This document shows, one piece after another, positions 5,552 to 50,960 of a stretch of DNA of 64,000 nucleotides. The translations under genes and the position numbers were made by a program. The notes under the pieces are model-generated. The model was not told the DNA's origin and did not search any database. It saw nothing but the letters and a program-made list of their open reading frames with translations. Origin of the DNA: Selaginella tamariscina (Eukaryota > Streptophyta > Lycopodiopsida > Selaginellales > Selaginellaceae); the NCBI GenBank assembly GCA_003024785.1, contig PUQB01000680.1, positions 62,001-126,000 of the forward strand, in the 5' to 3' direction. Each line of letters opens with the position of its first letter. Position 1 is the stretch's first letter.

Positions 5552-8196
5552 GTGCACGGTAGATGTAAGTCCCTGCAACCTCCATGTTGATTATCGCAGC
5601 CGCCTGAATCACCGCTGAAACAGAAGGAGAACTTGCGAAGACGACCATGAAACCACTCGCTGCCAAGTGCATTCCACTGAACTACAAGGCCTCCTCAAAC
5701 TTCACTGGATCTAACTGCACAATGTCCTTGTTGATGCTAGCACTCCATATACAAGCTCATTGGGCAAGTCGAATGATGAGTTGAAGCAGTATTCCCTACC
5801 ACTTTCCTGGAACACCGTTTGTGACTCAGCCGTATGTAGTTTGTCAACCTGTTGTCGGAGCTTGGTGTACACCTTTATCTGGGAAGCACCCAGCTCAAAG
5901 AAAGACCTACTCATCTCCTCCATATCGCACACAGCCAGGTTGTAGGATCCACAGGATGTAGCCAGTGTCGGGATGAAGGTTCTCAGGTCATCCTTGATGT
6001 CCAATCCAGCTACAAGTGGTTGCACCTCATTGAGTGTAAAGTTGATTGCCGACGGAGGTGCTGTAGAAGAGCTTGGTCCCGCTCCCGATCCCTTTGCAGG
6101 TGTAGATGTCTTCCGCACCGTCTTCTTCATCTTGCTCTTCTTGATAGCCTCTACTTCATCCGGCTCTCAAACAATCGCTGGAAGATCATTGGCATGCACG
6201 TCGAACAGTGAGCTCTCCCAAGCTGGTGGCTACTGCGATGGACAGTCGAGCCAAAATGGAACATGCTCCGTTCGAATGGTGTTAGAGCTCCTCTGCTCTT
6301 CGACCACATGTGAGGCTCGCTTGTATGATCTGTCCACAGCTTCATCGTCTGAGACGGTGCCATTTTCTTCGCTAGTATGAACCTGTAACACAAAGTTAGT
6401 CAGTAGCAATGTTGGAATGAAAGCTTACCTCCATATCATCCGACGCGCAGACTCCTCACGCTCCAGAAACTCATTCGGCTCCATCGAATAAGTGAACCAT
6501 ATGCAGTCATGGAAGGGCTGAAAGACCAGCACTTGCTCCGAGTTCGCATCTCGTCAAACCAGCTCATGAAGTCGACATCCGTCCAACTTCTTCACCATCC
6601 TCTCGCAGTCCCTTAAGGATCTGAATGGCTTCCTCGCGCACAGCCTTCCAATATAAGTCCAAGGTGAACCACTTGATCCACTCTTTGTCCTGCATGCCTG
6701 GTAGCCCAAGTGTCTATTGTTCTGCCTTGGATTCGAGACGAGTGAGCTTGTTCAAGTATCGGAGTCGCAGCATGTTTGAAATCTTGCCTTTGACATCGCG
6801 TACAGCTTCTCAATGCCCATCCAGCGACACTGCTTATGAGAGATGTTCGTCACCTTCTGGAACCACTCCTCCCCCAACTCTGGGTCTATGATAGAGAGGA
6901 ACTTGTGCATACGCTTGTCATGCTTCTTGTACACTACTGCTTCAGGTTCAGCTCAAGTTGTGGATTGCCTTTAGCATATACTGTTTAGATCATCTTTTAA
7001 ATGTTAAACTATCTCAAAAAAGTTTAAACCTATCAATCAAACCGAAGGTTACCTTGAAAAGGATCTTTGCGCAGATCAGGTTTGGAAGAGGATGCCAAGC
7101 CGTCTTTCCTGTTGCACTCTCCTTCCACTTCCGCACCTCAAGACGATCAACCTCGTGAGTGACTCGAGGATTTTCTGAGTTCCTTCAGTACTAGTGCAGA
7201 CCGCCTTTACAGCGAGGAGAATATGTGGTAGCGTTGTTTCCACAGATGTTGCTGAAGATCTGTTCATTGAAACTGTAAGTCTAGACCTTAATGAAAAGAA
7301 AAGAAAATACTCACATTTATCGATTGGAACATCGAAACCAGTTGAAGATTGTCGAGGTTCTATGTGGAAATGAAACTCGATCGAACGCAAATAGCCCATG
7401 CTGGTTGTCCTCTGCATCCTCCGGTAGAGCTTCTGCAAAGCCTGTAGCCTATGGTTCCCGTCCCAGCAGCTGAACTTCCGGTTTGAGAGCCTCGAAGCCC
7501 ACTGTTTGTACTCCGGCTGAGTAAGAGCTTGCTCGAAAGACCGGTGCTGCTCGTACTGAACCGTGTCCTTCGACAGCTCCGATAGCTCCTCAGTAGTGAG
7601 TGGATCTCCGATGGACAGAATGAACAAGGCCGTGTTGCGTAGATAAAGCCTTCTTCAACGATGACACCAGCTGTCCAAGTCCCCTGGGTTCACTCGTCGA
7701 ACCACCTCGTTCGAATGCATTCTACAGATTGGCACATCAGGAGGATCACCAAGTCCCTTGATAGTAATTTTGTCAAGCAGGTTGCTGAGCTCTCCAAATG
7801 CAGGCTGGCCGGTATGCTGTATAACTCCTTCGGCTCCTTATCGCTCTTCGCCTTCTTGCCTTTTGGATCAGCTTTCCACGGCCTCTCTTTTTGCTGACTG
7901 CCTCCTCCAAGTCGTCCTCGCTAGCTTCAACTGCCTCTGTCATCTGCACTTGCTCGTTCAGGACTGTAACCTCACGGATGAAGGAGGCAACTGCGACGAG
8001 CTCTCCGGGAAATCTGTGATGGTTGATGGAGGCTGCTCCTGCTCAACTGGTACTACTTGAGACTGAGTCACTGGAGGATCCTCCTTTGCTACATTAGATT
8101 TCCTCTCTTTCCTCGCTTGTGCTTCGATATCCTCTTCTCTTCCCGTGGCTCTTCATCAGGCGCAGTCTCTAGTAGACGTTTTGAAGCTCTCACCAT
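5552..8196 (-). pseudogene. ParB-like / DNA-methyltransferase-like cargo gene, truncated copy (E1-A)
   Basis: The minus-strand gene starts with an ATG at 8196 (MVRASKRLLE in copy B). In order it encodes a basic/acidic low-complexity N-terminus; a ParB/Srx-like domain (about 7740-7450) with the motif SCWDGNHRLQAL; a charged middle region; and the start of a methyltransferase-like domain with 'FDLPNELVYG' (about 5780), which sits where DPPY/W-type motif IV is expected. The sequence ends at 5552, before motifs X and I. Several frames are broken by single-base gaps. Copy A retains a short segment just after 'SIGD' ('LTTEELSELSK') that is deleted in copy B. The intron at about 7270-7325 (minus-strand GT-AG) is shared with copy B. 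The gene cannot make a complete protein. Confidence 0.65.
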
Positions 8197-8274
8197 TTTG
8201 TAAACTCTGGAAAGCAAACACACAAGTCAATTGATTCAGGAGACAAAAGGAAAAATAAAAATCAAAGATGACTA

Positions 8275-9030
8275 ACCTTGTGGCTGCCGACTCAAGCTAG
8301 ATGGTGCCGACCCTCTCAGTCGGCACTGAGACAGGTTGGTGCGACCCTTCAGTCAGTACAGCAAAGTAGATGAGCAAACCTGCCGACTGAGACAGGTTGG
8401 TGCCGACCCTCTCAGACGGCACTGAAGAGATAATGTAAGAAGTATGCCAACTGAGCTAGGATGGTGCCGTCCCTCTCAGACGGCACAAATGGGAAGACCC
8501 TTTAACTCTGGAAAAAAAAAAAACATTGTGATATGGATACTTGAGGCAAATCAAAAAATAAAGAAATTGAACAAACCTTGTGGCTGCCGACTGAGAAGGA
8601 AGGTGCCGTCTCTCTCAGTCGGCACAAATGGGAAGACCCTTTAACTCTGGAAAAAAAAACAATTGTGATATGGATATTTGAGCAAATCATAAAATAAAGA
8701 AATTGAATAGACCTTGTGGCTGCCGATTGAACAGGATGGTGCCTCTCTCTCACACGGCACAAATTGGAAGACCCTTTAACTCTGAAAATAAAAAACACAT
8801 TGTGGTATGGATATTTGAGCAAATCATAAAATAAAGAAATTGAATAGACCTTGTGTCTGCCGACTGAGCCAGGATGGTGCCGTCTCTCTCACACGGCACA
8901 AATGGGAAGACCCTTCAACTCTGGCATAAAAAAAAACACATTGTGATATGGATATTTGAGCGCAAATTAAAGAAAAAGAAATTACAAACCTTGTGGCCGT
9001 GACTGAGCAGATGGTGCCGACAATCTAAAT
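8275..9030 (-). repeat. E1-A leader array: about 136-bp exon-intron-like repeat units with inverted repeats
   Basis: About five units (cores near 8585, 8720, 8857 and 8994, with a variant proximal part at 8285-8480) recur every 135-137 bp. On the minus strand each unit reads as an exon-like block of about 70 nt (starting 'agttaaagggtcttcccatt', ending 'gccacaag'). It is followed by an intron-like block of about 66-70 nt (starting GTTTGTTC or GTCTATTC, ending in a T-run plus CCAG). Each exon-like block holds GTGCCG...CGGCAC and GCCGACTGAG...CTCAGTCGGC arms. The array lies immediately upstream of the cargo gene start and probably forms its spliced 5' leader. Confidence 0.65.
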
Positions 9031-9486
9031 CGGCACAGAAATCTCGATTGATTTACTTGGGCGCTGCACGAATCGACTCGAAATGGATGGCGCTCCTCTC
9101 GCCCCTTGGAGGAGATTTCAGATATCAGATCTGAGATAGAAAAAACCTAGCCGCAATGGAAACAGTAAACCCTATTACCAAAAAACCCTAGCCGCAATGA
9201 AAACATGAACCTACGGAATAAATGTGACATTAATATTTAGGGTTAATATTAAAATATGTGAATAATTGGTAAAGGTGAAGATATTTCAAATCATAAAAGG
9301 TAATAATTAAATTAAATGGTGATACTAGAGGACAGCATTAAGAACATAGCTGGGCAGCGTAGAATTAATTATATACAAAAGTGTATTCACGTTTATTATC
9401 AACGATTATAATTTTTTTTGGCGAACGAGAGTGTTTAATCTTTTGCTTTGCTTTCCTAAACCACCGAGCTTTCTCCTTGCGTTGTC
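9031..9486. promoter_or_regulatory. Presumed divergent promoter region of E1-A with telobox-like motifs
   Basis: This interval separates the cargo leader array (minus) from the transposase start (plus). It contains 'gtaaaccctatt' and 'aaaaaaccctagccgcaatg' (about 9166-9200), which resemble the plant telobox AAACCCTA. 'agccgcaatg' occurs twice. The promoter role is inferred from position only. Confidence 0.35.
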
Positions 9487-10655
9487 ATGGCCAGAGTTAC
9501 TTATGAAGGCATTGACAAAGATTTCCCATCGATGAAGATGGAAATGCTTTTGTGTTTGAACATGATCTTCACTTTGCTTTCACATTCCTTGTTGGTTCAG
9601 TATACATGTGGTTTAATTGATGTCAGTTTCTGCGAGTTCTGGAGAAGATGTGGAGTTATTACCAGAAGGCAATGCATCAAACCAGTTTATCTTTTACACA
9701 TTGTGCCCAGCAAAGGGCCCGTTGTTCAGGTTGCAGACAAAGGAGCGTGAAGAATCCATGCTGGTGTGTCTTTAAGAGCAGACAAATGTAGGATAGGGAA
9801 GGATCTCATTGGTTCATCTGAAGTTAAACGAGTCTTTGAACTACCGGAGATATACAATGGAAATGTCATTTACGAACTTCCTCCAAAGAAAAAAGCACAA
9901 AGAAGTACTTGGGGATGAATCGCAAGGATGGTTGCTACCATTGGACACACCCGAGCACAACACACTGGCATGTTCCGGTGCGAGTCAGTCGAAGTTCATG
10001 TGTCAGACATCTCAAATGCATCAATCCTACCTGCCCCTACTTGGCTTTTGAGAAGAAAGCAAATAAATGTCACTTCAAGGGTGCTGTGGAGAAGGCAAAG
10101 ACAACTGAGTCAGGCAAAGTAAAAGGCATGAAATGTAAGCATTGTGGAGAGGAGCATTGCTAGTGCACACTTGTCTGGCTTATGTGTACTACATTCTGCC
10201 AGACGACATTTCTTTTACAAGGTTGTTCATTCACAGAGGTGTTCATTAGCATCCAGTCAGCCCCTCAGTGTCAGCTTCAAACGTTCAGCGTGCCAGATCT
10301 AGTGTCAGCAACGTGGTAAAGAGCAGTCTGCGAACCAATCAACGAGTGATTAAGTTTCAAGCTGCACGTGAGCTCATCTTTGAAGAACTTTTCAAGGAAG
10401 GAGGAGAAGTCTCGTACACTAGTTTACTCTCAAAACTTAAACCTCTTACAAACCATCGAAGGTATTTTTTTTAGATCTCTACGTGACCTTTCTTTAGGAC
10501 TCGGGACTGGATTACACAATCAAGACAAAAGAAGACACACTTTAGAGAGGGTTACGAGGGTCTTCTGGAGTTGAAGACAAAGTTGCCAATACCTTTCATT
10601 CACGTCATACATGTTCCAGGGATGGAACTGCATGGTGCTGAGGAGCAGCCTTGAT
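9487..10655 (+). pseudogene. E1-A MULE-like transposase, 5' part (zinc-binding N-terminal region)
   Basis: The gene begins with an ATG at 9487 (MARVTYEGIDKDFPSMKME). After a frame break it continues at about 9815-10163 with a Cys/His-rich region: 'KDGCYHWTHPSTTHWHVPV', 'CINPTCPYLAF', 'MKCKHCGEEH'. This looks like a zinc-binding DNA-recognition module. Next comes 'ELIFEELFKEGGEVSYTSLL' (about 10368-10430). The reading is cut at about 10655 by the E2 insertion and resumes at 23415 with the catalytic core. Copy B carries the same zinc-binding region at 44310-44790 (minus) without the first exon. Family assignment rests on the catalytic part. Multiple frameshifts make this copy non-functional as written. 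Confidence 0.6.
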
Positions 10656-10669
10656 ATGCATGTTGTAAT

Positions 10670-11130
10670 AAAGTGGGCATGATACGTGAAAATGGGAATA
10701 TAAAATAAATTACTAATTAATACTTAAGTTTTAATTATTAATTAATCATTTAATTAATATGTAATTAAGCCTTAAATATTAATTAATTAATTAATTAATC
10801 CTTCAATAACCTTACTTAGTAAGGAATATTCCTAAAATATCTTAGAATATTCATATTATTCTAAAAATAGTTTACAATAATGAAGAAATACTATCAAACA
10901 TAATTACAAATGAAATCATTTTCTTATCAACATGTTAATTTATAAATACTTTCTTCCTAACATACAGAGAAATCTCCTCATTTTGTCTAAATCATCACTC
11001 TCCGGATTAATCAAATCATTTTGGTCAATATCTTGATGTTGTTGCCACCACTAACACTCTCACGAATGCAATTGGGAGTTGCCATCCTTGTTAATACATA
11101 AGATGTGATAAGAGAAGGTCTGCATAAAGG
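10670..11130. other. AT-rich left subterminal region of E2
   Basis: TTAATTAA-rich sequence (10680-10810) with no coding frame. It resembles the AT-rich opposite end (22800-23414), as expected for subterminal regions of a DNA transposon. Confidence 0.4.
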
Positions 11131-11135
11131 CTCAT

Positions 11136-12128
11136 CTAAAAATGACGTTCCTTAAGAATAATATTATAAAGCGCCCGGTTGCTATCCTTCATTTTATAAA
11201 ATTCAAAATCACGAGAAAGAAAAGCTTCAGGAAATGTATGATACGGTGGATACTGCTCACAAAAATTTTCGAGATTCTTCTTTCTGAGGCACGTATCCAA
11301 GTAGTTCACTAGCTCATCCATGATATCGGTATCAGAATATGGATCGAAAGTGATTGGATGAATACAAGCAATGTTTTGGTTGAGCATAGCCTTCTGAGGA
11401 GAGTCGTCTACTACTAAGATATGTGCATTCTTCATTATCCTTAAGCGACTGATCTCCCCATGAGTCCCAATTATTCTTTCATTCTTGAAGAAGTATGGCT
11501 TGCTTTCCTTTCTTATATTGTGAAATTCGAGAGGTTTATAACACATTCGCTGGTCAAAAATCCAATCTTTACGAATCACCTCTTCTGCAACACTACAATG
11601 TTTCTTAAGCAAATTCAACAGCGGTGTTAAGTTATGAATCTGCATGCATGACCAAATCCCCACAAGCGCACCCATCTCCTTAAGCTTTTGAAAGAGACGA
11701 TCCAACCCTGGACGAAAAATAATATCATATCGAAATTTACCATGACAAGGAATGAAATCTCCTTGTTTGATTTCTTTTTTCCTATCCTCGGGCCTTTGTC
11801 GATGAAGCAGAACACCATTGACATCCAACAACACAATATGGCCATGAGTAACATGAGATAGCGTTGCCTCTTGAATACTTTGCAAATCACTTGTTTGCTC
11901 CCTTTCACATTTATCCGTTGCCACTATCTCGTTGCCTATCCCTTCATCATTTAATTGTACATCATCCTTACAAGATTCAGATATTGCATGCGCTGAAGAA
12001 ATTGATTTCGGAACTGAAGCCAATAAAAATGATGATGAAAAAACTGAAGTGGCCCCCATGGTAACGATGTTTTGAGCTGCATTATTATCCATTTCCTGCA
12101 TGAACTCTGTCATTCTGACATGTGGCAC
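11136..12128 (-). CDS. FCP1/NIF-type HAD phosphatase-like protein carried in E2
   Basis: An uninterrupted 330-residue frame. The N-terminal 90 residues are low-complexity and acidic. The FCP1-homology (HAD) domain follows, with HIVLLDVNGVLLH (D102, N104) where the catalytic DxDx(T/V) motif is expected, 'FRPGLDRLFQKLKEMG' at about 138-153 and the acidic motif VVDDSPQK (about 239-246). The second acidic residue of DxD is Asn, as in plant FCP1-like proteins with an LDLNGLL motif, so catalysis is uncertain. HAD phosphatases of this family usually dephosphorylate protein Ser/Thr, for example the RNA polymerase II tail. A possible upstream exon (about 12163-12200, donor GTAAGAG, acceptor ..GTCAG at 12117) would add residues. 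It is the only long intact frame in E2. It may be captured host sequence or true cargo. Confidence 0.7.
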   Translation of the reverse strand: MPHVRMTEFMQEMDNNAAQNIVTMGATSVFSSSFLLASVPKSISSAHAISESCKDDVQLNDEGIGNEIVATDKCEREQTSDLQSIQEATLSHVTHGHIVLLDVNGVLLHRQRPEDRKKEIKQGDFIPCHGKFRYDIIFRPGLDRLFQKLKEMGALVGIWSCMQIHNLTPLLNLLKKHCSVAEEVIRKDWIFDQRMCYKPLEFHNIRKESKPYFFKNERIIGTHGEISRLRIMKNAHILVVDDSPQKAMLNQNIACIHPITFDPYSDTDIMDELVNYLDTCLRKKNLENFCEQYPPYHTFPEAFLSRDFEFYKMKDSNRALYNIILKERHF

Positions 12129-12458
12129 AAGAAATTGTCGCCAAACCCCTCTCTTACCTCATGCCAATGCTGAAAATCCATGTTCTCAATTGTTTCATTA
12201 CATCTGCAAAATGATAATTAGCTGACCTTAAAATTATCAAGGTATATTATTTACCTTGTTAATGTGTGACCCATGTTTGAACTAAAAGCTTCATTAATCC
12301 TTGAGAATTTATTTTCTGTACAAATATAAACGAAATATACAAAAATGCCTTATGTTACACTCATTTACAACTATTCGTCACTCTAACAATTCATTAACAA
12401 TTCTTCTTCGCTATTACCTTCTGAGTGAGGCGAAGAAGGTCTAAGCCGCTTGTGAGAT

Positions 12459-15200
12459 GGTTCAAGATCTTCTGCATCTTCTATTGATGTTTCCATGGGT
12501 AATGGAGTGTGCAATGTTCTGTACTCCTCGAGATAACTTCCGGTCTAATATCTGATTGAAGTTCGTCTCAGACTCCGACATTGAACCAGATTCGTCTTCA
12601 GAGCTATCGCACTTATCTGGAGGGAACTTTCTCAAATACTCCTTTATGGATTCGTTGGGGTAGTCAGTTGAGAACCTATCTATCCACTTGTTCAGGTCCT
12701 CAACCATGGTCTTATCCTTTTCAACGGCAAATACATGTATGCCGAAGGTAACACTCCTTCAAGACGGACCCCCTAGTGCAGTAGTCAAAAACCCACGCAT
12801 CACTGTGAGGACCCCTGATCAAGTTGACGATGCTCCGTGCCGCTTGACTTGTGATGTTTGGATAACGTACATTGCCGAATACGTCACTCTCACCTATCGG
12901 TGTATCGGATGGAGGTTCAGGGCCGTTGGAGTGCAAACAGATGCCTGGCCAGTCATTTGGAAGTTTGAAACTGTTTGGCGCATTCCTAACAACCAAGTGA
13001 ACAACCGAATCAATGCACTTCGGATCAGCATCATTCATATAAAATCCTGTCCAACGATGTTTATTCCTCTTGGCAAAGGAGAAGGCAAAGGTATCGGTGA
13101 CATGAGCAAGAATCAAGAAATAAATACCTGAAAACGTAGATATCAGTCAAGAGTGCAAGTATGAATTCAATAATAAATACCTTCTTTGTACATGCTTGCA
13201 CGGCTAAGTTTCTCCACCAAATCCTCTAGTGTCCTGTCTGTCGAAGGATTTTTTGACACCCGCCGATCCATCACGAACAATTGAAACGGTTTCCTACAAG
13301 CAGTGATGGTACCCCATAAAGTCTCCGAATCCAACAAAACATCTGTAGGGCTTGTCGTGATTCGTAGCATCCTCCTTTATAAGGTTCAACTCGGTTCTCC
13401 GCTGCTGAAGGACTGCCATAAGAGAAGGCGTCATCGCAATGTTCTCCTTTTTGGCGTTGGCGTGCAATAGATTCTTGCCCAGATCTTCCGATTGATTCAC
13501 CCATTCGACAAGCATATCATCGTTTGTCACATGCAAATATTTGTTGACCTCTTCGTATGTTGAAGCCGAAATCCAACCCAGTTTGTGGCAGTGTATTCCC
13601 AACCACTCCTTGAAGTGCCTGACCGTCTTCAACTCCATTGCCTTGAGATGAAAAGGAGAGGTGGGGCTGCTGTTGTTAATCTGTAATTTGCCATCAATCA
13701 CCAAATCAGCCAAGACTTCCATCTCCTCCATCGTTGTTCCATTTAAAGGCTTCAACCATGTGAGCTTGAAATCGTTGTCTACATCCTTTATAGATTGAAC
13801 AGACTTAGCCTTCGGCGTCTTACTGGGTTTCTTTGCAGACTTCTCTGAGGGCTCCACTTCACTTGTCTGCTTCTTCTTCAGTGTTCCTTTTGCAAAGGAT
13901 TCCATAATCCCCAACCATTTGCAAAGATCCTATCCTCGGGACAAGAAATCAACATCATCAAAAAGGATGTTTCCTTCCCGCCCACCTGGGCAAAATCAAC
14001 TGCTACAATTTCTTCAACTCTCTGAGAAAAAAGATTAATATACCGGCGAGATAAATCCCGCCCAAACAATTTGCTTACCCGGTAGTCCGCAGATTGTGTA
14101 TTCCCTGCGGTAGCTCTTTGTGGTCGCTGAAGAGATTCCCACACGGCTCGCGTGTGTTTGAACTTCTCCCATATTTTGCTGTTGTAGTGGTTGGTGTCTG
14201 CAGCGTCCCATTCCGCCGATAACTTATGGTACTGCTCGATTGTGAGATTCGGCTTCGCTAAAAACGCCGATCTTTTCGTCAGCTTCTCACGGGTATGCTC
14301 GGAAAGTTTTGTTGCCATCGTTCCTTTGTTGTGTTCGTCGAGAAGTCGTTGGGCTGCCGTTATTGTGTGCTGGGCCACTAATGATGTAGTACTTAACTGA
14401 TTTTCTATTCTCCGTCTGAACCTTCCTCATTTGTTCTGGTGTTGTGATCCACACTTTGTCAGCGCCTTTGTTTTTCGTAGTATGCGCACAAAACAGCATT
14501 ATGTGGAACGGTGTAAGAATTGTCGTCCTTCATCTTCTCCATGAGCTCAGCTACACGTTCCTGATTCAGTGGCCTGTAATGAAGTTTGGGTTGACGCTCC
14601 CGAAATTTGCTAAGCAAATTGAACGTGATCTGTAAAGAACCTGAGACCAAGCCACCCTCTCAATCTCCTTTATGATGTCGCAGTGTTCTTCTTCAATGTG
14701 AAGAGGGACGATTGCTCCACTTGCTGATTTTTGTATTGTGAAACAATATCTCCTGACAATACACCTACTCGATAGTCAGAAGATCTTCGAAGTAGACATC
14801 CAGATGGATCTCAAGCTTTCGTGAGTTGAAGAAGAACTCCAAGGTCAACATCATTAGTGAACACGTGAACGTCATTATCACAAGTAACAAAACCACCCGA
14901 AATTAATGTTGTAACTGGCAACCTCTGGATCCGAGAACGTGACATTGGATGAACGAGGCATATGTGTCGAGCATCGTTCAATCTGGGTTCACAACATGCT
15001 TTCGGATGCTTGACTAGCACACCCACTTTCCATTGTTTGCTTGTCCATGCGATGTGACAGAGGTTAGTTTGACAGCAACATGGTTGTTCCAATGCGCTTC
15101 CCGTTTAGTTTGAAATATGGCCAAGTTGATTCCAGAATTCCCCTGCCCATTCTTCTCCTGCTCTCGTCTTCAATGTGACTTCAATTCCACATCTGAATAC
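12459..15200 (-). pseudogene. E2 cargo: ParB-like plus MTase-like multi-exon gene, frames broken
   Basis: Read on the minus strand. A ParB-like part at about 14650-14300 contains 'RPLNQERVAELMEKMKD' and then 'YYIISG' followed one frame away by 'QHTITAAQRLLDEHNKG', the counterpart of the ParB DGxHR motif. A helical charged region and a Lys/Ser-rich linker (13914-13800) follow. Next is 'DVLLDSETLWGTI' (about 13345-13310) at the motif IV position. After a 57-bp intron (13131-13187; GTATTTATT...TTTTCAG) come 'IYFLILAHVTDTFAF', then 'DAWVFDYCTRGSVLKECYL' and, after a one-base shift, 'GIHVFAVEKDKTMVEDLNKW'. These match motif I and the following acidic strand of a beta-class N-MTase. The C-terminus is acidic. 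DPPY is not present, so methylation activity is doubtful. The single-base shifts could be sequencing errors. Exons upstream of 14700 are not resolved. Confidence 0.55.
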
Positions 15201-15605
15201 AAAAATGATTAGTTCAAGCATATCGAGTATAACAGATTTTATTTTAATTCTTACCAGAATTTTGACGACGACTCCATACTAATGACTCGATCTCCTTGTT
15301 TAATTAAATCGTCCTTCTGGAAAATAATACACTATGAATACAAATTATATAAAAACGCACACACACTTGTATAAACCCGAATATACAAAAATAATACAGA
15401 GAGAAGTAGACGGAATTAACTATCCAAAGCTCACCTTTGTGCTAGTTTCAAAGGAAAGATAACATTTCGTTTTAGAACACCACAAATGTGAGCTCTGGAC
15501 AGTTTTACATAGTTTCCTAGCTTTTACTCGAAATATTATGATAAGATGATAAAAGTAAATAAAATGAGATATACAACTTATATATACTACACATATTATT
15601 CACAT
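15201..15605. other. 5' region of the E2 cargo gene
   Basis: No domain-bearing frame. A minus-strand acceptor-like 'tttttgtattcag' at about 15195-15207 suggests that leader exons lie here, between the coding part and the palindrome array. Otherwise it is AT-rich. Confidence 0.35.
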
Positions 15606-15611
15606 GGAAGG

Positions 15612-16590
15612 TGCGGCGGGATTAATCTTGCCACTCCTTCAATGCCTCCTGAAAGAGTGGGCGGGATTAATCTCGCCACCTTTCTGGAGGCCTTGAACGG
15701 AGTGCGGAATTAATCTGCCACCCTTCTCGGTCTCAGAGAGAATTGGGCAGGATTTATTTGGCACACCCTTCAGTGACTCCAGAAAGGAGGTGGGATTAAT
15801 TCGCCCACCATGTAAGGGATGGTTAAATGGAATTTTGCCACCCTTCCCCGTTCTTCCATTGGTATGTTGTAAACCTTCTACGTCTCAGACAGAAACGTTG
15901 GGATTGGTCCGACTCACCAATGGAGAAAAAAAGGAGGTGGTAGGATTCATTTCCAACAGGCAATTGAAGGCTCGCGGGATTAATCCCGCCGCCAGGGTTC
16001 ACTCGGTCCCTATGCGGCGGGATTAATCCCGCCGGACGCCAATTCCCTGCTCGAAATCGGGCGGGATTAATCCCGCCGCCTAGGCCCTTTAGGCAGGCCT
16101 TGGCGGCGGGATTAATCCCGCCCAATTCCGTGCAGGCAGCGGATTAATCCCGCCGCCCCGGCCCTTCACTTGGGCCCTAGGCAGGGATTAATCCCGCGCG
16201 TACGCATGCCCTGCGCGGAATCGGCGGGATTAATCCCGCGCTTAGGCCTTCAGGCAGGCCAATGGCGACGGGATAAATCCCGCCCAATTCCGCGCAGGGC
16301 ATGCGTACACGGCGGGATTAATCGGCCAGGCCCTTCACTTGGGCCTTAGTCGGCGGGATTAATCCCGCCGGACGCCAATGCCTGTGCGGAATCCGGCGGG
16401 GATTAATCCTGCCGCCTAGGCCCTTCAGGCAGGCCAATGGCGGCGGGATAAATCCCGCCCGATTCCGCGTAGGACATGTGTACCCGGCGGGATTATCCCG
16501 CCGCCGAGTGGCTAATTATATAGCGTTGGGATTAATCCCACCGCTACACACGTCTCACCATATAGCAGCGGGATTAATCCGCTGCTACAC
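15612..16590. repeat. E2 palindrome array, left block (about 20 units)
   Basis: About 20 copies of the perfect 18-bp palindrome GGCGGGATTAATCCCGCC or close variants, spaced mostly 40-47 bp from 15973 onward and more loosely before that. Spacers contain secondary motifs such as 'cttaggcccttcaggcaggc' variants. Units nearest the cargo gene (15612-15810) are more degenerate than central ones. The block lies directly upstream of the minus-strand ParB-like gene. Iterated palindromes next to a ParB-like gene recall parS clusters in form; binding is inference. Confidence 0.9.
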
Positions 16591-16975
16591 ACACACACAC
16601 ACAGATATATACAGATTATACAGATACTGGTACACATAATATATGTATGTATACATAGGTATATATATATATATGTGTGTATATGTATATCGTGTGTATG
16701 CATGTGTGAAACAAATAAAATCATACAGATAAACAAACACACACACACATATATATACAGGAGTGTGCGTGTGTGTGCGAGAGATACAATTATCAAATCA
16801 ATAAAATTATACAGATACACACACACACACATATATATAGATAAATAAATAGAATATATATATATATATATCTGTGTGTGTGTGTATATGTATATTAATA
16901 TCTGTGTGTGTATATGTATACGAGTGTGCGTGTGTGTGAGAGATAGAGATCTATAGAGAAGAGAGAGAGAGAAGG

Positions 16976-17007
<32 letters not shown>

Positions 17008-17175
17008 ATATATGTATACGAGTGTGCGTGTGTGTGCGAGAGATAGAGATCTAAATTATATTATTAAGATACACACACATATAAATATATATGTGAATAA
17101 AAATAAATAAATATCACAAATAAACGCAGAGGAGTGTGCGTGTGAGAGAGAGAGAGAGAGAGCTCACCTGTGTGA
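16586..17175. repeat. Microsatellite cluster
   Basis: Runs of (AC)n, (TA)n, (TG)n and (AG)n, for example AC at 16586-16602, TA at 16977-17002 and AG at 17144-17162, interspersed with repeats of 'gagtgtgcgtgtgtg' at 16762, 16922, 17019 and 17131. The latter make a loose higher-order repeat. Confidence 0.8.
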
Positions 17176-17345
17176 GAGAGAGAAGGGATTTCGCTGCCGC
17201 CGCCGCCGCTGCCTTACAACCTAGGAATACCAAAACCCTAAAAGGAATAGAATATATATTAACCCTAATCAAATATTCCTTTTAAGAATATACTTAAACC
17301 CTAAAAAGAATAAACATAGATTCGCCTTAAACGAATATTCTTCAT
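17176..17345. promoter_or_regulatory. Telobox-like cluster between the two palindrome arrays
   Basis: After a CCGCCG run (17196-17212) the sequence has 'aaaaccctaaaagg', 'ttaaccctaatc' and 'ttaaaccctaaaaag' within about 80 bp (17230-17300). These match the plant telobox core AAACCCTA, common near plant transcription starts and bound by TRB/AZF-type factors. Its place in the central non-coding part of E2 suggests a shared promoter zone; this is inference. Confidence 0.4.
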
Positions 17346-18965: not shown

Positions 18966-18969
18966 TCTC

Positions 18970-19815
18970 GGTTAGCCGGGCGGCGGGATTAATCCGGCCA
19001 TTTTTTTTGCTCTTTGAAGAGGTGGCGGGATTAATCCCGCCACCATCTCTTTCATAGCTATGGCAGAATTAGTTCGGGCAATGCTTTCCGCCTCTTAAAA
19101 AGAGCGGCGAGATTAATCCCGCCGATAACTCTCTCAACTGATAAATGATTTACTTGAATTTATTAAAAGAGTTGTCGGCGGGATTAATCTCGCCAACCAT
19201 TTTAGGAGGCAGAGAAGGGGTGGCGGGATTAATCTCGCCACTACTTCCCTGTTTTAAATATTTGTGGGCAGAATTCATCCCGAATCTCTTTGAAATCATA
19301 GTTTCGGAGAGAGTTGTGGGCGGGATTAATCCCGCCGCTTTCCCCGTCGTCAGAGTTGTGGGCGGGATTAATCCCGCCGCCTATTCTCCGTCTTCAGTGT
19401 TGTGGGCGGGATTAATCCCGCCCCCTCCCTCGTCGGAGGAATTTGCGGCGGGATTAATCCCGCCGACTCTCACAGATGAGGAAGATCCGCGGCGGGATTA
19501 ATCCCGCCGGTACTTCCTAGTCGGAGGGAGCCCGCGGCGGGATTAATCCCGCCACACTTCCTCGTCGGAGGGACCCGCGGCGGGATTAATCCCGCCGCTA
19601 CTTCCTCGTCGGAGGGAGTCTGCGGCGGGATTAATCCCGCCGGTACTTCCTCGTCTGAGGGAGCCCGCGGATTAATCCCGCCGCCTCTCCGACGGGGTAG
19701 AGTCGGCGGCGGGATTAATCCCGCCGACTCTCTCCGATGGGGTAGAGTCGGCGGCGGGATTAATCCGCCGACTCACTCTGAAGGGTAGAGTCTGCGGCGG
19801 GATTAATCCCGCCCA
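18970..19815. repeat. E2 palindrome array, right block (about 19 units)
   Basis: About 19 copies of GGCGGGATTAATCCCGCC and variants. From 19317 to 19815 they are nearly perfect with a very regular 43-44-bp period; the two degenerate units are at about 19065 and 19265. Spacers contain a second inverted repeat, 'cttcctcgtcggagggag' and later 'ctctccgatggggtagag'. The block lies just upstream of the transposase gene, so the two blocks flank the central region and face the two divergent genes. Confidence 0.9.
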
Positions 19816-22797: not shown

Positions 22798-22799
22798 GG

Positions 22800-42833: not shown

Positions 42834-43025
42834 GGGGTCTCGGCGAAAAGGAGGCTCCGGCTCAGGAGGCTTCATATTATATTAGAATATTCACGGATAT
42901 TCTAGGGTTATTTTAGCATATTCTAGAATATTCTCAAGAATATTCTAGAATATATAAGTTTTTATATGCGACTGGCTTAATATATGCCGACTAGCTTAAT
43001 ATATGCCGACTGGCTTAAAAAACAT
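42834..43025. repeat. E1-B left terminus and subterminal GCCGACT repeats
   Basis: After the terminal inverted repeat come GAATATTC-type palindromes (42890-42955) and then three 20-bp tandem copies of a unit like GCCGACTGGCTTAATATAT (about 42968-43020). Confidence 0.75.
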
Positions 43026-43059
43026 TATCTAAACCTAAACCATCTATCCTTGTAGCACC

Positions 43060-44831
43060 GGTGGGTCATGAACTCTGCTGCAATCACCAGCAAACGGTGG
43101 ACCTCCATCTCATGAGCGATCGCCTTTGTAGAAATATGTGACGTCCGGGTTCAAGCCAAGCACACGGTATAGAAGTACAGTGTACACATGGGCTCCAACT
43201 TTTGCTCTTCTGAAATGTAGAACAACTGCATGAAGGATAAGTATTAATAGTCACCTTTGCAGAGTCATTTCTGCCGACACAACAAAAGCCTCCTTCCGTC
43301 CTCTAGCTGTCACTTCAACATTTCACACAACCTAAAAACGTCTTGGCCTTGCGGAAATCTCTTGTTCCTTAGACATTTTGTTGGAATCCGGACCATACGT
43401 CTTCGAAGGTGGAATTGTTGTAGATCCAGCTCCACGTGTGGCGATGGTGTTTTGTCCTTCTGACCCTCATCTACTCTTCCTGCCATCCCCTATAACCTTC
43501 AGAACAAAGCCTGCATCCTGTAGTTTCTCTGACCTCCTCACTTGTCAGCTTCGTTTCTTGAGCATAGGCCAAACCGTTGGTGGTGTTGGAATTCTTGACC
43601 GAAGAATTTTGCCGTTTTGGCGCGTGAAACACCCTGAGTCTTTTGGGCAGAACCACATCATCTGTACATACTCCTCATTCCCCAAGGATCAATGTACATT
43701 TGTTTTCCATAGAATCCTGGTGCTGGCACTCTGCTGGATAACCGATTGGTTTTCCACACAGAGCAGTTCCTTCCTGATTCATCCCCAAACACTTAACCTT
43801 ACTGGATGCTCTGATTCGTCTGATGGCCCACTCTGTTTGAGCAATCTCTCTCTCCAAAACCTCTTCGAACCTTAACCTCTTTCTCCTGTTTGTTTGGACC
43901 ACCCGCTCTGTGTACTCTACATCATGTCTGTGTGAACATCGAGCATCAGACTGTTCTGTTCCTTGACTGTTCTCCTAACAGTTTGCACTCGAACGTTAGT
44001 GTACTCGTGAACTCCGGGCTGGCAAGTGTTCCTCGCCTTCCACCAGATTGATAATTGTTAATGGAGATAAAGTGGGGTCTAAAGTGTGTCTCCTTCTGTC
44101 TTGATGTGTAATCCAGTCCCGAGTCCTAAGAAAAGGTACGTCAGTGTGTAGAGATCTAAAGAAAAAATACCTTCGATGGTTTGTTAGAGGTTCAAGTTTG
44201 AGAGTAAACCAGTGTACAAGACTTCTCCTTCTTCCTTGAAAAGTTCTTCAAAGATGAGCTCACGCGCAACTTGAAACTCAACCCTCGTTGATGGTTCGCG
44301 GACTGTTTTTTACCACGTTGCTGACACTAGATCTGGCACGCTGAACATTTCAAGCTGACACTGAGGGGCTGACTGGATGCTGATGAACACCTCTGTGAAT
44401 GAACAACCTTGTAAAGAAATGTCGTCTGGCAGAATGTAGTACACATAAGTCGGACAAGTGTGCACTATCAATGGCTCCTCTCCACAATGCTTACATTTCA
44501 TGCCTATTACTTTGCTTGTCTCAGTTGTCTTTGCCTTCTCCACAGCACCCTTGAAGTGACATTCATTTGCTTTCTTCTCAAAAGCCAAGTAGGGGCAGGT
44601 AGGATTGATGCATTTGAGATGTCCGACACATGAACTTCGACTAACTCGCGCCGGAACATGCCAGTGTGTTGTGCTCGGGTGTGTCCAATGGTAGCAGCCA
44701 TCCTTGTGATTCATCCCCAAGTACTTCTCTATGCTTTCTTTCTTTGGGGGAAGTTCGTAAATGACATTTCCATTGTATATCTGCGGTAGTTCAGAGACTC
44801 GTTTAACTTCAATTTTTTCTTTGCGGCTCAA
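43060..44831 (-). pseudogene. E1-B transposase remnant (no catalytic core)
   Basis: On the minus strand, 44831-44310 is an open stretch with the zinc-binding region ('KDGCYHWTHPSTTHWHVPA', 'CINPTCPYLAF', 'MKCKHCGEEPLIVHTC'). After 44090 it jumps directly to sequence matching 24355 and onward of copy A (charged C-terminal region, 'TNRRKRLRFEEVLEREIAQT' at about 43890, and 'CLGMNQEGTALCGKPIGYP'). The SDEA...CxxH catalytic part and the first exon (MARVTY.. in copy A) are gone. It cannot be an active transposase; a DNA-binding fragment could in principle be made. Confidence 0.7.
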
Positions 44832-44834
44832 TTA

Positions 44835-45180
44835 TCCGTATCACAATGTTTTTTTTTCAGAGTTAATGTGTCTTCCCATTTGTGTCGGAATCCCAAAGAT
44901 AAAGGGTCTTCCCATTGTGCCGACTGAGAATGATGGCACCATCCTAGTTCAGTCGGCAACCACAAGGTATTTTCGATTTGTTTATTTTTTTCTTTGCGGC
45001 TCAAGTATCCGTATCACAATATTTTTTTTTTTTTCAGAGTTAATGTGTCTTCCCATTTGTGCCGACTGAGAGTGACGGCACCATCCTAGTTCAATCGGCA
45101 ACCACAAGGTATTTTGAATTTGTTTATTTTTTGCTTTGCGGCTCAAGTATTTCTTTTTACAGAGTTATAATGTTAACTTA
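44835..45180 (+). repeat. E1-B leader array, exon-intron-like units
   Basis: Two and a half units related to the 136-bp units of copy A. Exon-like blocks 'agttaatgtgtcttcccatt'...'ggcaaccacaag' alternate with blocks starting GTATTTT and ending in a T-run plus CAG (for example about 44969-45037). Exon-like blocks contain GTGCCGACTGAGAG, GACGGCACC and TTCAGTCGGCA. Orientation matches the cargo gene at 47592. Confidence 0.65.
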
Positions 45181-45535
45181 ATAAAATGGCAAATATGAAT
45201 TCTATACTTTGTATGATAGAAAGAAAAAAAAGAACTAACCTTTGTGATACACCAATCGCATGTGTTACTGGCAATAGTGGCATATATTCCACCCTTATAG
45301 TTAGTTATCCTTATATAACCTTAACAAATCCTTTTGGAATGACAAAAAAGGATTCAACAATCCTTTTTTGGAATGGCAAAAATAGAACGTGATTAACACT
45401 TGATTAAGAATATTTATGAAAATGATTAACACTAAATCCTAAAATCGTTAACTAAACCTACCATATAAATTAAGGATTTAGCTACAAAAAAGTACATATA
45501 TACTGCATGCCAATATTTATAAATGTTTATAGAAT
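45181..45535. other. Spacer within the E1-B array
   Basis: AT-rich, no recognised repeat or gene. Confidence 0.4.
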
Positions 45536-46140
45536 TAACAAGTTGGTTAGCCCTTGCGGTTTGTAACACAGAGGTTGCGGGTTTGATTCTTGCTAACATA
45601 CTTTTTTTAGAAAAAGGGTTTAGGAACGTGATTACCACACTAAGCTAGGTTAATATGCACCACATGCCAATATGCTCTTGTGTTTACAGAATTGACAAGT
45701 TGGTTAGCTCTTGTGGTTTGTAGTGTAGAGGTTGCAGGTTTGATTCTTGGTACTTACTTTTTTTCCCAGGAAACTTTAGGAACGGCACCATCCTAGCTCG
45801 CCGTCTGAGAGGGTTGCACCAACCTGTCTCAGTCGGTAACATACTTTTTTTTAGAATCTGAGAGGGTTGGCACCAACCTGTCTCAGTCGGTAACATACTT
45901 TTTTTAGAAAGGTAACATACTTTTTTTTTAGAAAAAGGGTTTAGGAACGTGATTACCTGGTTAAGCACGGGAGTAGGGACGGATTAGGTAGGACGTGATT
46001 AACACACTAAGCTAGGTCAATATGCACCACATGCCAATATGCTCTTGTGTTTACAGAATTAACAAGTTGGTTAGCTCTTGTGGTTTGTAGCGGAGAGGTT
46101 GCGGGTTTGATTCTTGGTAACTTACTTTTTTTTCCCAGGA
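45536..46140 (+). repeat. tRNA-like (SINE-like) repeats at the start of the 125-bp array
   Basis: Three copies (about 45540, 45697, 46060) of a segment running from 'aagttggttagctcttg' (A-box-like) to 'gaggttgcgggtttgattc' (B-box-like), about 60 nt and tRNA-sized. Each is followed by 'ttggtaacttacttttttt'. They look derived from a tRNA gene, but the acceptor stems are not evident, so they are not functional tRNA genes. Confidence 0.5.
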
Positions 46141-47130
46141 AACTTTAGGAACGGCACCATTGATTCTTGGTAACTTACTTTTTCCCAGGAAACTTTAGGA
46201 ACGGCACCATCCTAGCTGCCGTCTGAGAGGTTGCACCAAACCTGTCTCAGTCGGCAGATATGCTCTTCTACATCTCGGGTTTCAATTCTTGGTAACTTAC
46301 TTTTTTCCCAGGAGAGTTTAGGAACGGCACCATCCTAGCTCGCCGTCTGAGGGGTTGGCACCAACCTGTCTCAGTCGGCAGGATATGCTCTTCTACATCT
46401 CGGGTTCAATTCTTGGAACTTACTTTTTTCCCAGGAAGAGTTTAGGAACGGCACCATCCTAGCTCGCCGTCTGAGAGGTTGGCACCAACCTGTCTCAGTC
46501 GGCAGATATGCTTTTTACATCTCGGGTTCAATTCTTGGTAACTTACTTTTTTTTCCTAGGAAGAGTTTAGGAACGGCACCATCCTAGCTCGCCGTCTGAG
46601 GGTCGCACCAACCTGTCTCAGTCGGCAGGATATGCTCTTCTACATCTCGGGTTCGATTCTTGGTAACTTACTTTTTTTTCCCAGGAAGAGTTTAGGAACG
46701 GCACCATCCTAGCTCGCCGTCTGAGAGGTTGGCACCAACCTGTCTCAGTCGGCAGGATATGCTCTTTTACATCTCGGGTTCAATTCTTGTAACTTACTTT
46801 TTTCCCATGAAGAGTTTTAGGAACGGCACCATCCTAGCTCGCCGTCTGAAGGGTCGGCACCAACCTGTCTCAGTCGGCAGGATATGCTCTTTTACATCTC
46901 GGGTTCAATTCTTGGTAACTTACTTTTTTTCCCATGAAGAGTTTAGGAACGGCACCATCCTAGCTCGCCGTCTGAGAGGTCGGCACCAACCTGTCTCAGT
47001 CGGCAAGATATGCTCTTCTACATCTCGGTTCGATTCTTGGTAACTTACTTTTTTCCTAGGAAGAGTTTAGGAACGGCACCATCCTAGCTCGCCGTCTGAG
47101 AGGTCGGCACCAACCTGTCTCATCGGCAGG
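46140..47130 (+). repeat. E1-B tandem array, about 125-bp units
   Basis: At least seven units with 'aacggcaccatcctagctcg' at 46323, 46447, 46572, 46697, 46822, 46948 and 47072, period 124-126 bp, plus partial units before. Each unit contains inverted-repeat arms (GCCGTCTGAGAGGT...ACCTGTCTCAGTCGGC), a B-box-like 'cgggttcaattcttgg' and a 'ttactttttttcccag' tract. Confidence 0.9.
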
Positions 47131-47581
47131 ATATGCTCTTCTACATCTCTGTGCCGACTAAGAGGGTCGGCACCAGCTAGCTTGAGTCGGCAGCCACAAG
47201 GTTAGTCATCTTTGATTTTATTTTTATTTTAGGAGATCCTAGCTCGCCGTCTGAGAGGGTCGGCACCAACTTGTCTCAGTCGGCAGGATATGCTCTTCTA
47301 CATCTCTGTGCCAACTGAGAGGGTCGGCACCAGCTAGCTTGAGTCGGTAGCCACAAGGTTAGTCATCTTTGATTTTTATTTTTATTTTAGGAGATTCTAG
47401 CTCGCCATCTGAGAGGGTCGGCACCAACCTGTCTCAGTCGGCAGGATATACTCTTCTACATCTCTATGCCGACTAAGAGGGTCGGCACCAGCTAGCTTGA
47501 GTCGGCAGCCACAAGGTTAGTCATCTTTGTTTTTTTTTTATTTTGTCTCCTAAGCAATTGACTTATGTGTTTGCTTTCCAG
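47130..47581 (+). repeat. E1-B proximal repeats, 157-bp units, ending at the cargo start
   Basis: 'ggatatgctcttctacatct' recurs at 47129, 47286 and 47443 (period 157). Each unit has an exon-like block ending 'cagccacaag' followed by GTTAGTCATCTTT...TTTTAG. The last block's intron-like segment (from about 47516) ends TTTGCTTTCCAG at 47581, ten bases before the start codon, which supports reading the array as spliced leader. Confidence 0.75.
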
Positions 47582-47591
47582 AGTTTACAAA

Positions 47592-50500
47592 ATGGTGAGA
47601 GCTTCAAAACGTCTACTAGAGACTGCGCCTGATGAAGAGCCACGGGAAGAGAAGAGGATATCGAAGCAGAAGCGAGGCAAGAGAGGAGAACCATCTAATG
47701 TAGCAAAGGAGGATCCTCCAGTGACTCAGTCTGGAGTAGTACCATTGAGCAGGAGCAGCCTCCATCAACCATCACAGATTTCCCGGAGAGCTCGTCGCAG
47801 TTGCCTCCTTCATCCGCTGAGGTTGCAGTCCTGAACGAGCAAGTGCAGATGACAGAGGCAGTTGAAGCTAGCGAGGACGACTTGGAGGAGGCAGTCAGCA
47901 AAAAGAGAGGCCGCGGGAAAGCTGATCCAAAAGGCAAGAAGGCGAAGAGCGATAAGGAGCCGAAGGAGTTATACAGCATACCGGCTAGCCTGCATTTGGA
48001 GAGCTCACGAACCTGCTCGACAAAATTACTATCAAGGGACTTGGTGATCCTCCTGATGTGCCCATCTGTAGAATGCATTCGAACGAGGTGGTTCGACGAG
48101 TGAACCCAGGGGACTTGGACAGGCTGGTGTCATCGTTGAAGAAGGCTGGTTATCTACGCAACACGGCCTTGTTCATTCTGTCCATCGGAGATTGACTAAG
48201 GACACGGTTCAGTACGAGCAGCACCGGTCTTTCGAGCAAGCTCTTACTCAGCCGGAGTACAAACAGTGGGCTTCAAGGCTCTCAAACCGGAAGTTCAGCT
48301 GCTGGGACGGGAACCATAGGCTACAGGCTTTGCAGAAGCTCTACCGGAGGATGCAGAGGACAACCAGCGATGGGCTATTCGTGTTCGATCGAGTTTCATC
48401 TCCACGGAGAACCTCGACAATCTTCAACTGGTTTCGATGTTCCAATCGATTAACATGTGAGTATTTTCTTTTCTTTTTGTTAAGAGTTAGACTTACAGTT
48501 TCATTGAACAGATCTTCAGCAACATCTGTGGAAACAACGCTACCACATATTCTCCTCGCTGTAAAGGCGGTCTGCACTAGTACCGAAGGAACTCAGAAAA
48601 TCCTCGAGTCACTCACGGAGGTTGATCGTCTTGAGGTGCGGAAGTGGAAGGAGAGTTCAACAGGAAAGACGGCTTGGCATCCTCTTCCGAACCTGATTGC
48701 ACAAAGATTCTTTTCAAGGTAACCTCCGATTTGATTTATAGGAAAGAAGTTTTTAACTTATTCTATGTGCAGAACAAGATCGACGATGATCTCGACAGAG
48801 CAGTCACTAGTGCTAAGGGCAATCCACAGGTTGAGCTGAAACCTGAAGCAGCTAGTGTACAAGAAGCATGACAAGCGTATGCACAAGTTCCTCTCCATCA
48901 TAGACCCAGACTTGGGGGAGGAGTGGTTCCAGAAGGTGACGAACATCTCTCTCATAAGCAGTGTCGCTGGATGGGCATTGAGAAGCTGTATGCGATGTCA
49001 AAGGCGAAGATTCCAAACATGCTGCGACTCCGATACTTGAACAAGCTCACCCGTCTCGAATCCAAGGCAGAACAACAGACACTTGGGCTACCAGGCATGC
49101 AGGACAAAGAGTGGATCAAGTGGTTCACCTTGGACTTATATTGGAAGGCTGTGCGCGAGGAAGCCATTCAGATCCTTAAGGGGTTGCGAGAGGATGGTGA
49201 AGAAGTTGGAACGGATGTCGACTTCATGAGCTGGTTTGACGAGATGAGAACTCGGAGCAAGTGCCTGGTCTTTCAGCCCTTCCATGACTGCATACGGTTC
49301 ACTTATTCGATGGAGCCGAATGAGTTTCTGGAGCGTGAGGATCTGCGCGTCGGATGATATGGAGGTAAGCTTTCATTCCAGCATTGCTACTGTCTGACTT
49401 TGTGTTACAGGTTCATACTGGCGAAGAAAATGCACCGTCAGACGATGAAGCTGTGGACAGATCATACAAGCGAGCCTCACATGTGGTCGAAGAGCAGAGG
49501 AGCTCTAACACCGTTCGAACGGGAGCATGTTCCATTCTGGCTCGACTGTCCGTCGCAACAGCCACCAGCTTGGGAGAGCTCACTATTCGACGTGCACGCA
49601 ATGATCTACCAGCGATTGTTTGGGAGCCGGAGAAGTAGAGGCTATCAAGAAGAGCAAGATGAAGAAGACGGTGCGGAAGACAACTACACCTGCAAAGGGA
49701 TCGGGAGCGGGACCAAGCTCTTCTACAGCACCTCCGCCGGCATTCGACTTTACAATCAATGAGGTGCAGCCACTTGTAGCTAGTTTGGACATCAAGGACG
49801 ACCTGATGACCTTCATCCCGACCCTGGCTGCATCCCGTGGATCCTACGACCTAGCTGTGTGCGACATGGAGGAGATGAGCAGGTCTTTCTTCGAGCCGGG
49901 TGCTTCCCAGACAGAGGTGTACACCAAGCTCCGACAACAGGTTGACAGACTACATACGGTTGAGTCACAAACGGTGTTCCAGGAAGTGGTAGGTGAATAC
50001 GGCTTCAACCTCATCATCCTCGACTTGCCCAATGAGCTTGTATATGGAGGTGCTAGCATCAACAAGGACATTGTGCAGCTAGATCCGGTGAAGTTTGAGG
50101 AGGCCTTGCAGTTCAGTGGAATGCACTTGGCAGCGAGTGGTTTCATGGTCGTCTTCGCGAGTTCTCCTTCTGTTTCGGCGGTGATTCAGGCGGCTGGTAA
50201 TCAACTTGGAGGTTGCAGGGACTTACAGCGTCTACCGTGCACGAGGCTGGGGATACCGTGACAAAATTAAGGTAAGCTAGCTATTCAAGTTCAAGTTTAA
50301 CTTGGTCTATGTGGCAGGATAACTTGTTAGTTCTCTTGGTGCTGCAAAGCTCTGAGAAGAAGTCGAAGAGGCCAAACCCTCTGGCGTTGACGAACACGAT
50401 CCTCGTCGACACGCCGACCGTTTTCAGGAGGCTTGGTAAGGAAGTACTTTGCTTTTATCCTAATGGAAGTTTGTGCAGGATGATGATTCAACCGAAGAGT

Positions 50501-50752
50501 GTTCGACTCATGCAGCTTTTGATCGAGCGTCTCAGTAGACCTGGCGACCTAGTCTGGGATATTGGTTCCGGAACCGGGTCATCGTTGTTAGCTGCCGTCG
50601 AGCTCGGAAGGAATATTATAGGAACCGAGAAGAGTTTCGAACTCTCTAGGTTGGCAACAAACAAGCTCGCAGAGAACATTAGACCAGAGAATTACCTACT
50701 CAAACACACGTCCAAGCGTAACTGGTGGTTCGAGAACTGCAGCTTTACTTAA
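47592..50752 (+). CDS. ParB-like / beta-class DNA-methyltransferase-like cargo protein (E1-B), six or more exons
   Basis: Starts MVRASKRLLETAPDEEP; the leader acceptor at 47581 supports this start. Domains are a charged N-terminus; a ParB/Srx-like domain ('DVPICRMHSNEVVRRVNPGD' at 48055-48115, 'KFSCWDGNHRLQALQKLYRR' at 48288-48345); a long charged middle (48512-49620); and an MTase-like domain with 'NLIILDLPNELVYGG' (motif IV position, about 50010-50050), 'VAGTYSVYRARGWGYRDKIK', 'IQPKSVRLMQLLIERLSRPG' (motif X) and 'DLVWDIGSGTGSSLLAA' (motif I, about 50550). Order IV-X-I is beta class. DLPN replaces DPPY/W, so catalysis is doubtful. Introns are 48457-48511, 48719-48772, 49365-49410, 50272-50317 and 50436-50478 (43-55 bp). 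One-base shifts near 47745, 48000 and 49630 and a small deletion at 48195 break the frame as written. Bacterial and phage proteins often join ParB to N-MTase domains. Confidence 0.7.
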
Positions 50753-50839
50753 GATGAAAAGAAACTTTAGCTAATGTATATTGAGTAATAAATTAAGCTA
50801 ATATAAAAAAAATAAGATAGAAATACAACAGTTTTATAG

Positions 50840-50960
50840 AATTCTTTTTTGCCGACTGAGGCCAATACTGCCGACCAGAAAGAATATTCAAAATATTCTA
50901 GAATATTCTGAATATTCGAGCCCAGGCCTCCTGGGCCCCAAGCCTCCAAAATGGCGGCAC
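50840..50960. repeat. E1-B right terminus
   Basis: Contains 'gccgactgaggccaatactg' and a second 'gccgacc', GAATATTC palindromes and the terminal 'aagcctccaaaatggcggca'. It is followed by TCACACAAT (50961-50969), the probable right target duplication. Confidence 0.65.

Follow-up and report, generated by a model that had tools for sequence, protein, structure and literature searches.

The window analysed here, a stretch of 64,000 nucleotides from Selaginella tamariscina (contig PUQB01000680.1, positions 62,001 to 126,000), holds members of two transposon families, denoted E1 and E2 (Table 1). Self-comparison reveals two E1 copies in opposite orientations; one of the two contains the E2 element. 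In both families an array of inverted repeats lies between a transposase gene and a divergently transcribed second gene (the cargo). The original prediction had proposed this common architecture from the window, and a survey of copies in the 300.7-Mb assembly (1391 contigs) confirms that the arrangement is real in E1 as well as in E2: the pairing of cargo, array, and transposase recurs in the sampled copies of both families and is not an accident of the window. The copy-number tallies (877, 815, 3086, and 2327) are first-look counts of candidates, unverified as copies. No such element is named in the titles and abstract openings of the papers listed in the literature searches.

Table 1. Parts of the E1 and E2 elements in the window (positions count from its first letter).
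Feature	Position	Strand	Remarks
E1 copy A, part 1	5552..10655	-	cargo truncated from 5552; array ~8253-9037; 5' part of transposase, + strand, from ~9500
E1 copy A, part 2	23442..25660	+	remaining transposase and terminal repeat
E1 copy B	42834..50960	+	both ends present; 8.1 kb; flanking 9-bp duplication, 8/9 matching (42825-42833 / 50961-50969)
E1 copy B, transposase gene, MULE-like	43060..44830	-	lacks ~1 kb internally at 44069/44078 that other copies have
E1 copy B, inverted-repeat arrays	44900..47545		built of GCCGACTGA...TCAGTCGGC units; located between the two divergent genes
E1 copy B, cargo gene	47592..50752	+	ParB-like motif CWDGNHRLQAL; C-terminal N6_N4 methylase fold, DLPN replacing DPPY
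E2 element, nested in E1 copy A	10656..23437	+	27-bp imperfect terminal inverted repeat ATGCA(T/A)GTTGTAA...GGGCATG; flanking TGAT duplication
E2 third gene, NIF/SCP-type phosphatase-like (PF03031, E = 3.8e-12)	11136..12158	-	open for 340 codons; DVNGV at the DxDx(T/V) site
E2 cargo gene	12420..15280	-	N-terminal domain in common with E2 transposase; ParB-like stretch RPLNQERVAELMEKM...IISGQHTITAAQRLL; C-terminus methylase-like by eye only
Lone E2 palindrome near-match inside cargo gene	14046..14061		coding sequence continues through this stretch in copy L035
E2 array 1, palindromes GGCGGGATTAATCCCGCC	15616..16585		mostly ~44 bp apart; upstream of cargo gene
E2 array 2, palindrome GGCGGGATTAATCCCGCC	18983..19815		upstream of transposase gene
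E2 transposase gene, DUF7869 (PF25273)	19925..22800	+	N-terminal domain with weak, sub-threshold resemblance to TNP1/En/Spm Transposase_23

Copy A of E1 is broken: it is cut short at 5552, and E2 interrupts it. Twenty further E1 copies were fetched from the assembly, each chosen by a match to the cargo, and array sequence accompanies the cargo in all 20. Transposase sequence is found in 18 of these stretches (in part only in L026), while L018 and L019 have an inserted E2 in its place; a reading of these two in which the cargo was paired with another transposase was rejected, since both are E1 copies into which E2 has inserted. Counting the window copies as well, E2 lies inside E1 in 3 of 22 cases (L018, L019, and window positions 10656-23437). 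Target duplications could be measured in 16 of 21 copies and are perfect over 9 bp in 11, match at 8 of 9 positions in the window copy, and were not found in 4. A length of 9 bp falls within the 8-11 bp given for MULEs in the available part of a published account (PMC6446971). The transposase shows, by eye, DDE-like residues and a SWIM-like zinc-finger pattern (CxC...CxH); the Pfam scan returned no MULE match, and SWIM at E = 0.04, below the cut-off. Nested and truncated copies spoiled the selection test of this gene on the full set, and 13 of the 20 copies were retained. In these, exon 3 has 8 shared changes with an omega of 0.38 (P 0.15), and exon 1 has only 5, with an omega of 1.62. In all selection tests on E1 and E2 the mutation context (CpG) lies outside the model.

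The unit of the E1 array is ~137 bp long (TGCCGACTGA...TCAGTCGGCA), and within each unit the complement of TGCCGACTGA follows 32 bp further on. In copy L023, 15 exact occurrences of GCCGACT/AGTCGGC are present (the mean of 1000 shuffled sequences is 0.08 and the maximum 2). The position of the core GCCGACT was tabulated in 14 of the 21 copies, an end or a gene start being not locatable in the other 7. In all 14 it occurs in the array, one to three times near the left end, and once or twice near the right end, and it is absent from both coding regions. Each array contains 5-9 inverted pairs, and the number of units varies between copies; copy B (44900-47545) and L012 differ from most of the fetched copies in their longer array and in its unit types. 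Genome-wide, 902 matches (462 + 440) were counted for a 27-base segment of the ~137-bp unit, and none for its reversed control. Among the matches listed for this 27-mer (the first 100 places, contigs up to C225), array clusters are properly placed beside cargo matches on C113 and C120 and beside transposase matches on C14 and C132. The cargo match on C100 and the transposase match on C91 have no exact 27-mer, as required by this count, among the matches listed, which gives an array pairing of two out of three for each gene.

The majority reading of the E1 cargo, derived from 20 copies, has 992 amino acids and 5 introns of 46-56 bp. Its C-terminus matches PF01555 (N6_N4_Mtase) with E = 1.1e-8 (35.8 bits, cut-off 26.7) at profile positions 164-219 of 221, and MboIIA with E = 6e-4 among the methylases of known structure. 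Over 22 rows (the majority row included), motif I is kept in 20 and gapped in 2, and CWDGNHRLQAL is intact in all. The catalytic motif of N6/N4 DNA methylases is (D/N/S)PP(Y/F/W). At this site the cargo has DLPN in 21 of the 22 rows (one is gapped); in the structure comparison it is paired with DPPY of CcrM, within a segment that by itself falls short of significance. The C-terminus is an N6/N4 DNA-methylase fold, the methylase is probably dead, and since the catalytic motif is missing, the element probably methylates no DNA itself. An active DNA methylase, marking the element's own array with N6-methyladenine (6mA) or N4-methylcytosine (4mC), would agree with the PF01555 match and the intact motif I, and is nevertheless very improbable in view of DLPN at the catalytic site and of the E2 cargo, which matches no Pfam methylase model and no solved structure (see below).

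In respect to selection, the substitutions common to at least two of the 20 copies of the E1 cargo are synonymous in 24 of 44 cases, against 11.3 expected (omega ~0.29, P 4.4e-5), whereas the singletons are synonymous in 12 of 45 (11.5 expected); the Fisher test of shared versus singleton changes gives P 0.01. Shared substitutions represent lineages that went on jumping, and their synonymous bias indicates that the cargo probably mattered for propagation. With the recurrence of the pairing in the sampled copies, this purifying selection makes it likely that cargo plus array is functional, and it is at this grade that the earlier claim of a functional unit can be kept.

E2 differs from E1 in its ends and in its transposase. 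The window copy and four further copies all (5/5) have 4-bp duplications and the 27-bp terminal inverted repeat, with the last base missing on one side in C628. Duplications of 4 bp are also made by Sola elements, whose termini differ from those of E2. The transposase matches PF25273 in two exons (E = 1.1e-26 and 1.6e-10), and a 433-amino-acid exon is open in L019. The resemblance of its N-terminal domain to PF03017 is weak (E = 0.11 and 0.19, 12.8 and 12.1 bits, under the cut-off of 21). The two transposases, predicted to be different, do look unrelated, one being MULE-like with 9-bp and the other DUF7869 with 4-bp target duplications. E2 also has a third gene. The motif expected in NIF/SCP-type phosphatases is DxDx(T/V), and with DVNGV in its place the gene may encode another dead enzyme; comparison with a 3.8% diverged copy gave no signal of selection (21 differences, 6 synonymous, 5.0 expected). 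A second E2 fragment (63111-64000) directly abuts an apparent long terminal repeat (LTR) retrotransposon at 56796-63110, the direct repeats of which are ~630 bp long and 97% identical.

The sites in E2 are palindromes. The window contains 34 near-matches to GGCGGGATTAATCCCGCC (up to 3 mismatches in a 16-base core), all of them within E2, one in the cargo gene and the others in two clusters, and 25 of the 32 gaps between positions 15000 and 20000 measure 41-46 bp. The spacer between the arrays (16585-18980) consists partly of simple repeats. In the genome the 18-bp palindrome has 27,128 exact copies (none for the reversed control), which at 13 (C450, whose ends lie outside the sequence analysed) to 15 (window) per element suggests ~1,900 E2 element-equivalents, if the arrays are similar throughout. 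The co-occurrence of arrays and genes was examined on contig C1, where clusters were chosen by the palindrome alone, and not by a gene, among the matches listed (the first hundred places). By eye these form 11 groups (6 pairs, 3 single clusters, 1 spread group, and 1 lone palindrome). Five of the six pairs were probed, and each of the five is flanked by the cargo side at one end and by the transposase side at the opposite end, the cargo-side probe falling in one case on the array and the leader just upstream of the gene. Of the two single clusters probed, one is bordered by the cargo flank and, at its opposite end, by sequence with no match; the other is bordered by E2 spacer at one end and by the transposase at the opposite end. 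The third adjoins a transposase match. It could be argued that the arrays are neutral tandem-repeat expansions with the cargo amplified along as a passenger gene, as repeats expand easily and the number of E1 units varies; the purifying selection on the E1 cargo, the regular spacing of the E2 palindrome, and the location of the E2 arrays upstream of both genes in every pair probed make this improbable.

Among the N-terminal repeats of the E2 transposase, the second is similar to the N-terminal region of the E2 cargo (none of 200 shuffles scored as well; for the first repeat 57 of 200 did). This common domain offers the best clue that the two proteins may read the same array sites. Searches with the E2 cargo gave no match to PF01555 in Pfam up to E = 5, none among solved structures up to E = 10, none to PF02195 (Pfam, two pieces and the ParB pieces), and no convincing family in Pfam, NCBIfam (two short ParB-region pieces only) or PHROG (pieces only). 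In one copy the gene has an open frame of 516 codons that spans the ParB-like part. Its pooled exons, compared with the 3.8% diverged copy, have 41 synonymous changes among 98 (26.6 expected, omega 0.52, P 0.001), though only two of the four exons pass alone; eight near-identical copies have too few differences for a selection test. Frameshifts interrupt the gene, and at the one site compared the indel differs between copies. The private short deletions are of 1 bp in 59 of 76 cases, and 33 of the 76 adjoin the same base. Together with the 516-codon open copy, these patterns indicate that some of the frameshifts may be assembly errors and not decay.

Against 5.8 billion proteins neither cargo found any match (E 0.001 and 0.01), in an exact-word search that can miss distant relatives and with an E1 query that starts in low-complexity sequence. 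The whole E1 protein has no PF02195 match in Pfam, and its ParB-like motif was recognized by eye only. A route to ParB through YbdM was rejected, the pairwise alignment being out of register for both cargos (9 and 2 of 200 shuffles as good) and the relatives listed too narrow. Of the ParB/methylase-like cargo originally described, the methylase part is therefore upheld for E1 by the profile match, while ParB stays at the level of a motif and the methylase of E2 has no profile match. When the two cargos are compared with each other, the ParB-like stretches co-align in the same order (1 of 200 shuffles as good, a marginal result), which, together with the insertion of E2 into E1 that brings the families physically together, would suit a single ancestral module of cargo and array exchanged between the families, instead of one evolved twice. 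Such an exchange, although compatible with a regulatory role of the cargo, is unlikely: the similarity fades over the whole length (3 of 60 shuffles as good) and in the methylase parts (12 of 200), and the two array sequences have no resemblance by eye.

Symmetrical sites at a divergent promoter, accompanied by a constrained gene of DNA-modifying-enzyme origin that lacks the catalytic motif, look like an operator and its regulator. Each family would carry its own two-part switch, composed of the cargo protein and an inverted-repeat operator array. The cargo would be the descendant of a prokaryotic-type N6/N4 DNA methylase (the fold is found in E1 and presumed in E2), now probably without methylase activity, and the putative operator would sit at the divergent promoter driving both cargo and transposase. 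The cargo protein would recognize the array, in E2 possibly via the domain in common with the transposase, and its binding would either keep the promoter open against host silencing or raise the activity of the promoter, the direction and the link with DNA methylation being presumed. As a class of mechanism, self-encoded, array-binding regulators resembling VANC or TnpA (discussed below) are the best reading, which we favour tentatively and rate slightly under an even chance; its specific form as an anti-silencing system is plausible, with a lower probability than the class. The anatomy, the recurrent pairing, the confinement of the E1 motif, the selection on the E1 cargo, and the loss of the catalytic motif support the regulatory reading. 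More doubtful is the complete proposition, in which two superfamilies would each have a dead methylase-derived protein, of an origin other than VANC, binding an operator array and excluding host silencing, with the array-reading domain of E2 present in transposase and cargo, and ~27,000 operator copies spread through the genome.

Several results weigh against such a regulator. No ParB model was reached by either cargo in the profile scans made, which leaves the ParB likeness at motif level, and no DNA-binding domain was recognized by profile in either protein. Single-sequence models of the ParB-like pieces were too poor to be used (mean predicted local distance difference test, pLDDT, 34 and 45). 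Comparison of residues 1-330 and 301-700 of the E1 cargo with the E1 transposase revealed no common domain (63 and 83 of 100 shuffles scored as well). When the window copies are added, the contrast between singletons (128, omega 0.63) and shared changes (60, omega 0.36) in the E1 cargo is weaker. Finally, the E1 motif is also present next to the termini, a position just as compatible with binding by the transposase. The main rival, above all for E1, is that the arrays are bound by the transposase, for synapsis or autorepression, with the cargo as an accessory transposition factor or unrelated to the array. In CACTA and Ac elements, subterminal repeats serve as transposase binding sites. The placement of the second E2 array upstream of the transposase gene and the presence of the N-terminal domain of the cargo in the E2 transposase also agree with this explanation. 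We nevertheless consider it doubtful, as no palindrome lies close to either end of the E2 copy in the window and the E1 arrays lie in the middle of the element, upstream of the cargo, and not where synapsis sites are expected.

Outside the E1 and E2 elements, the window contains a second apparent LTR element at 33505-38417 (199-bp direct repeats, 97% identical) and, by eye, a B-box gene at 40555.

To our knowledge, the escape of plant transposons from silencing is understood in detail for few systems. If the regulatory reading is true, E1 and E2 would add a second type of escape, with a different protein, in two unrelated superfamilies and probably in an early-diverging vascular plant, and an array with an array-reading protein would then appear as a recurrent solution. 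The two families offer directly testable protein-operator pairs, and the exact E2 palindromes, as potential binding sites dispersed over the genome, could affect the regulation of host genes.

Prokaryotic and phage proteins that join ParB with an N6/N4 methylase have the ParB-like stretch before the methylase domain, the same order as in the E1 and E2 cargos. The cargos differ from them in lacking a ParB profile match, and the phage matches, among those listed (20 of 295 and 60 of 522), cover the methylase end only. In maize Spm, the accessory protein TnpA binds repeated motifs in the element and activates it, and the sites are subterminal. The weak, sub-threshold resemblance of the E2 transposase N-terminus to Transposase_23 (PF03017) recalls this system; the E2 sites, in contrast, lie upstream of both genes, and the window copy has none close to its ends. 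Genes derived from DNA methyltransferases are also carried by retrotransposons of dinoflagellates and charophytes, which, according to the accessible part of the report, captured cytosine methyltransferases (PMC5890265). Those are C5 cytosine enzymes, whereas E1 is a DNA transposon with an N6/N4-type fold devoid of the catalytic motif.

The closest parallel is found in the VANDAL MULEs of Arabidopsis (VANDAL21, VANDAL6), in which, as described in excerpts of two reports (PMC5735166, PMC10398659), VANC proteins act on arrays of short motifs in the element. The original prediction had invoked these elements, and the anatomical side of the comparison is apt. Both systems have a second protein encoded by the element and, in E1, 9-bp duplications as well; both have dense, family-specific arrays of short motifs in non-coding parts (upstream of the transposase gene, and introns), in which the number of repeats changes between copies. 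VANDAL elements are MULEs and E2 is not. In the same excerpts (PMC5735166, PMC10398659), the motifs of VANC21 have one orientation, whereas those described here form inverted pairs (E1) or palindromes (E2), and loss of methylation is demonstrated for VANC, whereas for the E1 and E2 cargos it would be a predicted effect.

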